Source: Gammaproteobacteria bacterium (lineage in GTDB: Bacteria; Pseudomonadota; Gammaproteobacteria; SZUA-229). Taken from it: DNA of 64,000 nt. The translations under genes and the position numbers were made by a program. The stretch covers positions 62,001-126,000 of the forward strand of contig JADGFA010000003.1 in the NCBI GenBank assembly GCA_016744065.1, written 5' to 3'. Below are positions 34,125 to 38,302 of the stretch, in pieces. Below the pieces are notes generated by a model. It saw nothing but the letters and a program-made list of their open reading frames with translations, was not told where the DNA came from and did no database searches. Position 1 is the stretch's first letter. Every line of letters starts with the position of its first letter.

Positions 34125-35126
34125 GTGCAACAGCCAAATAGTGAAGTTCTAAATTTATCAAAAACGGGCAAGAAGCTCATGAGACAGCGTCGTTTTCGTG
34201 ATGCTGAAACAGTATTTATGGAAGCACTCGATATTGAGCCTGCTAATAGTTATGTGCTGGTTGGTCTTGGTGATTTGTTCCGGATGTCTAATGATTTTAA
34301 TAAGGCGATTAGTTTTTATACTCGCCTGTTAAAATCAGATGAAAGTAATGTTTTTGCATTGCGCGGAATAGGTGATTGTTTTCGTGGTTTACGTCAGCCG
34401 GATAAGGCTGTTGAGTTCTGGGCCAGATACCTGGAAATCAATCGGGGAGATGTGCATGTAATGGTGCGTCTTGCAGATGCTTATAAAAGCATGGACATGT
34501 CTGAAAAAGCTGAAAAATTGTATATTGAGTCTATTAAAATTCAGCCTCGTGATCGTTATGCTCTAATGGGGTTAGGTAACCTTTATTATAAAAATCGTGA
34601 AGATGATAAAGCCCTGGGTTATTTTGAAACACTGTTATCACTAGATGAAAATTATGTTGCTGTTCTGACTATGGTTGGAAATATTTATCAGCGTAGAAGT
34701 GATTATCAGAATGCAGAGAAATATTACCGTAAAGCAACTGAACTCGAACCTGATAATTCATACGCTTTATATGGTCTTGGTAATTGTCAGCGCGGTGCAG
34801 GTCATCTTGATGAAGCGATTGATCTATGGGGTCAGATTTTAGATAAAGAACCTTATAATCAAAATATATTAAGTCGTTTAGGTGATGCCTGGATAAGTAA
34901 AGACGAAACGGATAAAGCGCGTGAGTTATATGAGCGCAGTTTAGACTTAGGATTTGATGCATTTGCGTTAATAGGTATGTGTCGCATCTATCGCGAAAGA
35001 GGTGATTTTGTTGAGGCTGAATCCTGTTGTAATCGGGTGTTAATGGAGAAGCCGGGTTTTGAGCGGGCTATTGAGGAATTATCTCTGGTACTGATTGATA
35101 AGGATCATGCTAATAAATTAGCCTGA
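34125..35126 (+). CDS. Cytoplasmic TPR-repeat protein
   Basis: A 333-residue protein made almost wholly of about nine tetratricopeptide repeats, each with the W/L-G-Y-A-P pattern (for example YALMGLGNLYYKNREDDKA and YALYGLGNCQRGAGHLDEA). There is no signal peptide or membrane helix, so it is probably a cytoplasmic scaffold. The start is GTG at 34125 with AAGAGAT upstream. It follows pntB by 154 bases. The 3' end abuts the hairpin-rich noncoding element. The binding partner is unknown. Confidence 0.82.
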   Translation: MQQPNSEVLNLSKTGKKLMRQRRFRDAETVFMEALDIEPANSYVLVGLGDLFRMSNDFNKAISFYTRLLKSDESNVFALRGIGDCFRGLRQPDKAVEFWARYLEINRGDVHVMVRLADAYKSMDMSEKAEKLYIESIKIQPRDRYALMGLGNLYYKNREDDKALGYFETLLSLDENYVAVLTMVGNIYQRRSDYQNAEKYYRKATELEPDNSYALYGLGNCQRGAGHLDEAIDLWGQILDKEPYNQNILSRLGDAWISKDETDKARELYERSLDLGFDAFALIGMCRIYRERGDFVEAESCCNRVLMEKPGFERAIEELSLVLIDKDHANKLA

Positions 35127-36000
35127 TTTAGTTTTTTAGTTTTAGTCTGTTCGTATCTCTGCAAGCCCTAATCTTCATGGGAATTAGAATTCTGTGGTGT
35201 CGCTTACTTAGCGACCTACTTTCTTTTCAACAGCAAAAAGAAAGTAGGCAAAGAAACGCCGTCCTTTACTCGCTTGTTCTCATTAAAAAACGAATGAGAA
35301 TTCCCGAAAATTGTCCCGATAGTATCAAGTTATTTTTTTAACCTGTTAGTTTATCACTCTGTTAGCGGGTCGTCCCGGTAAGCCGTCCAGGCTTATCGTG
35401 ACTCAAAATCACATCCCTGTGATTTTGCCCCTAGGTGCATACAATTTTCGGCAAGCTCCAGAGGAGAGGAAAATCAAAACCGATATAGAGTGAAATTTCA
35501 AAGTAATATCATTCTATTTTTCATATCGTTATTCCTGCGATTAAATTTTCTGGAAAGATTTGAACATGCTTACATGGCCTGAAAAGCGAAGGATAGGACT
35601 CCGTAGTAAGGCAGGAATTTAGTGGTTGTGGATTCATAATAATAAATCCAGCATGTAAATTACAACCAGTCGATATAATCTGTTTGAGCCTCTATTCTTT
35701 TGATTTATTTTCCCCATTACTCGAGCTGATGAGAGAGTGATTTATTTGGAGTTTTCCGCGAGGATGTCTGAGCGAATTTGTCTTTTAATTCGTGAGTTCC
35801 GCAGTGGCCAAATAAATCGGGAACGAAGAAGGTACTTTTATTTAGCTTTTTAAATAAAAGCTTGAGTTAAGCGGGGCGGCATTTTTTTGGTGACTTTCTT
35901 TTTGCTGAAGAAAAGTAAGTCGCCAGAAAGGCGACACCATAGAAATCAAATTCCCATGCAGCCAGAGGCTTGCAAAAAACGAATAGTTGAAACTAAAAAA
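35127..36000. repeat. 874-bp gene-free element with long terminal inverted repeats and nested hairpins
   Basis: No convincing reading frame is present. The two ends are an imperfect inverted repeat of about 130 bases. Perfectly paired, nearly collinear blocks are 35132-35142/35990-36000, 35160-35167/35967-35974, 35176-35185/35949-35958, 35195-35203/35931-35939 and 35231-35245/35893-35907. Inside are further perfect stems: 35215-35227/35236-35248 (13 bp), 35304-35314/35441-35451 (11 bp) enclosing 35379-35384/35390-35395 and 35404-35413/35418-35427, then 35739-35749/35808-35818 (11 bp) enclosing 35773-35778/35787-35792, and 35835-35844/35851-35860. It exactly fills the gap between two convergent genes, touching both stop codons. 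It may be a non-autonomous mobile element, a dispersed repeat pair or a structured RNA. Confidence 0.75.

Positions 36001-38302
<2,302 letters not shown>

Follow-up and report, generated by a model that had tools for sequence, protein, structure and literature searches.

Introduction

Bacterial MITEs are the subject of a review (PMC10969869), and MITEAba12 of a separate paper (PMC6382973). TIMEs are Tn3-derived inverted-repeat miniature elements (PMC4133298), while REPINs and BIMEs have been described together with RAYT transposases (PMC3116915). Lastly, the TwoAYGGAY RNA (RF01731) was listed in 2010 as a probable RNA of unknown role (PMC2864571).

Here we describe an element found in a stretch of 64,000 nucleotides of a gammaproteobacterial contig (JADGFA010000003.1, positions 62,001 to 126,000), which we refer to in full as the window. 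Like MITEs, the element lacks a transposase gene, is bounded by terminal inverted repeats, is dispersed between genes and shows target duplication in at least some copies. However, it is larger (0.5-1.5 kb, and more with cargo) and is built of conserved covarying folds common across the class. Like TIMEs, it has inverted-repeat units that can lie on either side of unrelated genes and may carry them along, as mosaic non-autonomous transposons do; it differs from them in its class-wide conserved fold and its target duplication of 8 bp, that of Tn3 elements being 5 bp, and no Tn3-type ends were noticed. REPINs and BIMEs are likewise non-coding, dispersed, inverted hairpin pairs at gene 3' ends, but the element is several times larger, duplicates its target and has no constant association with a RAYT gene. 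One array in the same genome resembles integron cassettes in that accessory genes, including toxin and immunity genes, are separated by repeated folded sites, from which the element is set apart by the size of the repeats, their inverted arrangement and the target duplication. The TwoAYGGAY motif is contained in the left domain of the element, and one sister copy within this genome scores above the gathering cut-off; here the motif is one module of the element, whereas Rfam classes it as a cis-regulatory RNA and not as part of a mobile element. The element is of an ordinary kind in principle and an unusual variant of it, being large and class-wide, having conserved folds with an orphan Rfam motif among them, and offering room for genes between its arms. 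Open-licence papers yielded no published description of the family, a search that does not show that none exists.

Results

The element fills the gap (35127-36000) between the stop codons of a TPR-repeat protein gene (34125-35126, forward strand) and argB (36001-36882, reverse strand), in an assembly (G000) of 3.88 Mb that is 99% complete. Its extent, 35127-36003 with no strand assigned, follows from the alignment of its arms, the ORF list, copies elsewhere and a relative (G004) that lacks it. There is no ORF of at least 60 aa in the ORF list for this interval and no transposase gene inside it, in agreement with a first-pass annotation of this DNA. The same annotation read the two ends as collinear inverted repeats, and this reading holds: the left 160 bases aligned locally to the reverse complement of the right 160 with a score of 108, compared to a mean of 18.2 and a maximum of 31 in 1000 dinucleotide shuffles, and identity persists on the full alignment, which spans ~150 bases with small gaps. 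The left arm (35129-35275, reverse strand), made up of an outer end and arm hairpins, pairs in this way with the right arm (35858-36003, forward strand), made up of arm hairpins and an outer end. At a threshold of at least 9 bp we found four perfect blocks: 35129-35142/35990-36003 (14 bp, coordinate sum 71132), 35176-35185/35949-35958 and 35195-35203/35931-35939 (sum 71134 for both), and 35231-35245/35893-35907 (sum 71138). The coordinate sums given earlier (71132-71134 and 71138) were thus recovered, and the fifth block counted at that time must be shorter. The outermost blocks do lie within a few bases of both stop codons, with the refinement that the 14-bp block reaches 36003, so that the right border overlaps the argB stop codon by three bases; on the left, the border lies within the final codons of the TPR gene. 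A target-site duplication, for which the borders of this copy were checked, is not visible there. An 891-nt stretch at the copy is predicted to fold far more strongly than its shuffles (z = -16.3).

Two structured domains are joined in the element. The left one (L unit, 35148-35490, reverse strand), supported by an alignment of 18 copies (A3), folds independently and includes a TwoAYGGAY match (35333-35454, reverse strand) whose 38.9 bits are under the gathering score of 43. The motif exceeds that score on contig C28 of this genome (45.0 bits, 7831-7987 of L075), and it scores 43.9 bits in L079. Applied to the 18 aligned L units, RNAalifold predicted a single domain of 68 pairs, 18 of them with compensatory changes; template switching can also produce compensatory changes in palindromes, and covariation alone is therefore not proof of an RNA function. 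Among 30 TwoAYGGAY loci fetched from the class, 18 had arm hairpins within ~700 bp, and the remainder include forms without recognisable arms. The right domain (R unit, 35603-36003, forward strand) has copies of 71-86% identity in its own genus and in other genera. Near the left end lie arm hairpins (35194-35265, reverse strand; 91.6 bits with the covariance model R1) that consist of a covarying GCCTAC...GTAGG stem followed by a TCGC...GCGA hairpin, and their right-end counterparts (35873-35940, forward strand) score 67.3 bits with the same model. A small extra hairpin module in the centre (35534-35624, no strand assigned) is missing from four other full copies and has a lone copy, 88% identical, on contig C21. 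This three-hairpin module of ~70 nt is found repeatedly, inserted into hairpin loops: besides the centre of the window copy, L087, L098 and L102 contain it in their arms, and on C21 it stands by itself. In L087 (2055-2243), L098 (1905-2000) and L102 (1760-1935) it sits in the apical loop of an arm hairpin, as it does at L147 (around 1440-1560), and a module resembling it occurs in a different family (G298).

We searched the arms and the remainder of the window copy in its own genome and in relatives, as the first-pass annotation had suggested, and found the sequence to be dispersed. The own genome has three matches on C28, a fragmentary one on C21 and another, short one on C85, and 20 of 40 relatives also gave matches. 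The three matches on C28 (L075) are solo L units without an R unit. Full copies in which L and R are joined occur at four other loci in two congeners (L076, L078, L080 and L081), with constant order and orientation, inner sequence in common and unrelated flanks. Since the two halves co-occur in this way at four loci, a single inserted unit is the right one of the two options originally offered. An empty site between the TPR gene and argB is present in the closest congener, G004, whose argB is 97% identical to that of the window: 166 bp separate the genes there, with no element. Homology to this empty allele ends at the last codons of the TPR gene and picks up just before the argB stop codon. 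The unit has thus been gained or lost at this site since the split from G004. At the same site two other genomes (G003 and G001) have element copies in a different arrangement, and in G002 there is another gene and no arms; this inserted gene, on the reverse strand (L069 1300-2720, G002:C2), takes the place of the element.

We then consider the family beyond the genus. A total of 35 arm sequences were aligned, and 24 trimmed ones were modelled. Across the arm stem and the second hairpin, 99.1% of cells hold standard pairs and 9 of 18 pairs have changed on either side; covariation scores 0.379, compared to 0.140 in shuffles. The model was positive in 63 of 276 genomes of the class, with up to 28 arms per genome. 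All 45 positive genomes in a phylum sample belong to the same class; other classes were perhaps few in that sample, so that restriction to one class is not proven. In ten genomes searched more deeply, adjacent arms less than 2.5 kb apart (39 cases) were outward-facing in 35, inward-facing in 3 and in the same orientation in 1. Within a genome, arms can be alike despite differing genes (L138 and L144 are 84% identical over 224 bp), and the arms of L194 and L195 are 87% identical over 550 bp. Many contigs of G001, G178, G449 and G461 begin or stop within arms; the elements thus break assemblies, and copy numbers are likely undercounted. Nested ends were seen at L079 (2914-4031) and L067 (2049-2991), where a complete element lies within terminal fragments of another and the element ends look tandem, and repeated end fragments also occur in four G122 copies (L181, L189, L192 and L193). 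In the betaproteobacterium Variovorax paradoxus (CP063167.1; L363 1970-3243), arm sequence lies inside a gap of 800 bp that contains no gene and is flanked by a HigB-fragment/regulator pair and, convergent to it, an ABC-transporter gene, which is the same arrangement.

Evidence for insertion comes from two further lineages. Thirteen copies in G122 have sharp ends in common and differing flanks, and a congener, G300, carries empty alleles for three of these sites, each with an intrinsic terminator between convergent genes. In the filled alleles the element lies just behind the terminator at two sites; at the third, L189, the terminator of the empty allele is gone. At fixed end positions, no target duplications above background were found for the 13 G122 copies. 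In G439, a complete Pseudomonas-like genome, 16 fetched copies are 79-97% identical. At L318 the left flank GGAAAAATAA adjoins an element running from GGTTTTTCGC to GCGATGAACC and is followed by the right flank AAAAATGAGCG, and the empty allele in G595 reads GGAAAAATAAGCG. The duplication is an AT-rich 8 bp that includes the stop codon TAA and is still identical at 7 of 8 positions. Exact 8-bp repeats lie on both sides of L306 (TAATTAAT) and of L303 (TTTTTCGT, a terminator T-tract), the latter read by eye, as automatic end-finding places the left end of L303 wrongly. Only 3 of the 16 G439 copies have a repeat matching at 7 or more of 8 positions, the others having no clear repeat, and mismatched pairings of left and right flanks reach 7/8 in 1 of 110. 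The 8-bp duplications in G439 indicate that the elements transposed, presumably by a transposase acting in trans. Copies within one genome are mostly 75-92% identical, so that recent movement is seen only rarely, as between L307 and L308 (97.4%).

The position of copies relative to genes is biased. By simple ORF calling, 26 of 43 copies stand between convergent neighbours, 15 between codirectional and 2 between divergent ones, which departs from an assumed 22/56/22% split with p about 5e-9, the expectation being rough and the ORF calls naive; this split is a general approximation. Many copies have borders no more than 30 bp from stop codons, and copies lie beside stops and terminators. The precise fit of the window copy between two stop codons, which was noted at first reading as unusual, is real; copies elsewhere also lie directly after stop codons or terminators, so that the fit is a property of the family and typical of it. 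Plausibly it is due to AT-rich targets at stops and terminators, where an insertion also does no harm.

Most copies carry no gene. Examples picked out by inspecting the longer arm pairs have, between inverted arms, a DpnII/MboI-type REase (L144), a Gp49/HigB-HigA-like (HigBA-like) pair (L194), a methyltransferase (L150) and a lipoprotein-like gene (L139). In the genome of the window, the three solo L units on C28 (L075 3836-8169) are direct, 94-96% identical and ~2 kb apart between psd and epmA, and they separate a lipoprotein gene and Tae4/Tai4, an effector/immunity pair with a T6SS amidase. In G003 (L077), L units at this site flank Fic and PDC-M36A genes, and in G001 (L082) one L unit adjoins a DUF4238 gene, where the contig ends. 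In G003 and G001, too, the psd-epmA site is a hot spot for accessory genes. Such gene-flanking solo L units of the genus, some of them direct, could have arisen by recombination. Between two arms in G079 (L196 2258-6712, G079:C35) we also observed an IS110-type transposase as well as a 709-aa fusion of a phage integrase with an IS91-type (Y2) transposase.

Discussion

Our combined findings suggest that the window stretch is quite likely a full-length copy of a non-autonomous transposable element whose family has spread through the class. Other origins have to be weighed against this. Chance placement of two unrelated dispersed repeats in inverted orientation between the genes would agree with the occurrence of solo L units and solo R units; it is scarcely credible given that four further loci each carry both L and R, ordered and oriented alike and with inner sequence in common, and the full-length copies elsewhere rule out two independent repeats. 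The units might instead be the sites at which an integron-like cassette system recombines, or simply handles for homologous recombination by which accessory genes accumulate, as the psd-epmA site brings to mind, with its three direct L units 2 kb apart, Tae4/Tai4 and the lipoprotein gene between them, and Fic and PDC-M36A between L units at the same site in a congener. Yet units of 300-900 bp with inverted arms are far above the size of attC sites, which are far smaller, most copies hold no gene, and the target duplication speaks for transposition, all of which makes this reading very improbable. Inspection of ORFs around the C28 array revealed no integron integrase there. A plasmid or phage element was discounted, as the window copy matched none of 72,556 plasmid and 50,697 phage records and the exact arm pattern had no match in viral contigs; a G439 copy found only two matches in the plasmid and phage records, of 1.3 and 2.5 Mb, both labelled plasmids.

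The choice of enzyme and the role of the fold separate the remaining readings. An oversized REPIN/BIME-like element, in which a domesticated Y1 transposase (RAYT) moves inverted hairpin pairs in the form of folded single strands of DNA, would account for asymmetric hairpins in inverted pairs at gene 3' ends, and Y1_Tnp is indeed commoner in element-positive genomes (49/63 versus 130/213 of the negative ones; odds ratio 2.2, p = 0.016), with two Y1 genes within ~1 kb of an arm in G079. One of the two is a RAYT-like Y1 transposase gene ~200 bp from the arm (L152 6133-7188, G079:C11). However, 14 of the 63 positive genomes, including the heavily loaded G070 and G287, have no Y1_Tnp match, no Y1 gene lies beside known arms in six genomes (G000, G122, G134, G141, G239 and G298), and Y1 chemistry does not fit an 8-bp target duplication, so that we regard this origin as improbable. 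RAYT/Y1 as the required enzyme was rejected on the weak association and the adjacency missing in most genomes. A group II intron or other retroelement was likewise set aside, the own genome (G000) having no reverse transcriptase and the positive and negative genomes showing no association with one (25/63 versus 80/213, p = 0.77). Unlikely, too, is a structured RNA or transcription-terminating element held by selection at convergent gene ends, with dispersed copies that are old: strong covariation, the TwoAYGGAY motif, the 3'-end position, old copies and the terminator lost from the filled allele of L189 all suit it, but empty alleles in close relatives, target duplication and near-identical units with different flanks show that the element is inserted. 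This reading is compatible with transposition, since a terminator role could follow insertion.

For the non-autonomous transposable element that we prefer, each copy would comprise two outward-facing structured arms, inverted around a variable centre that may be empty or hold an accessory gene. With no transposase of its own, it would presumably depend on a cell-supplied enzyme that recognises the inverted ends and cuts AT-rich DNA with a stagger of 8 bp; DNA of this kind occurs at stop codons and terminator T-tracts, where insertion would also be harmless. We infer that the enzyme is of the DDE type. The 8-bp duplication and the outer ends of the G439 lineage, GGTTCTTCGC, resemble those of ISL3-type insertion sequences (GG-CTTC type ends), and an ISL3-derived MITE is a candidate reading. 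The 58-nt outer end of G439 had no match in plasmids and phages. The window copy does not have the GGTTCTTCGC ends of the G439 copies, and, as lineages vary in their outer ends, several enzymes may be involved; the window copy presumably arrived by the same reaction as those of G439. Most likely, the conserved folds serve one of two purposes: as folded DNA they would take part in movement, or as RNA they would end and insulate transcription between the two genes.

As the centre can hold an accessory gene, the element could serve to carry conflict genes, and cargo genes presumably move together with the arms. A broader proposal, possible although doubtful at present, is that a class-wide element family of two inverted, conserved RNA-like domains, of which TwoAYGGAY is a part, moves single toxin, immunity or defence genes among chromosomes via one or more trans-acting transposases and then terminates or insulates at gene ends. 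With the likely transposon reading, the orphan Rfam motif TwoAYGGAY gains a physical home, and many of the gaps without genes that follow gene ends in gamma- and betaproteobacteria would belong to one mobile element family. Our findings thereby point to a transposon-like carrier of single conflict genes, missed by annotation pipelines because the carrier has no coding sequence, and they turn its mobilising enzyme, and whether the fold acts as DNA or as RNA, into testable questions.
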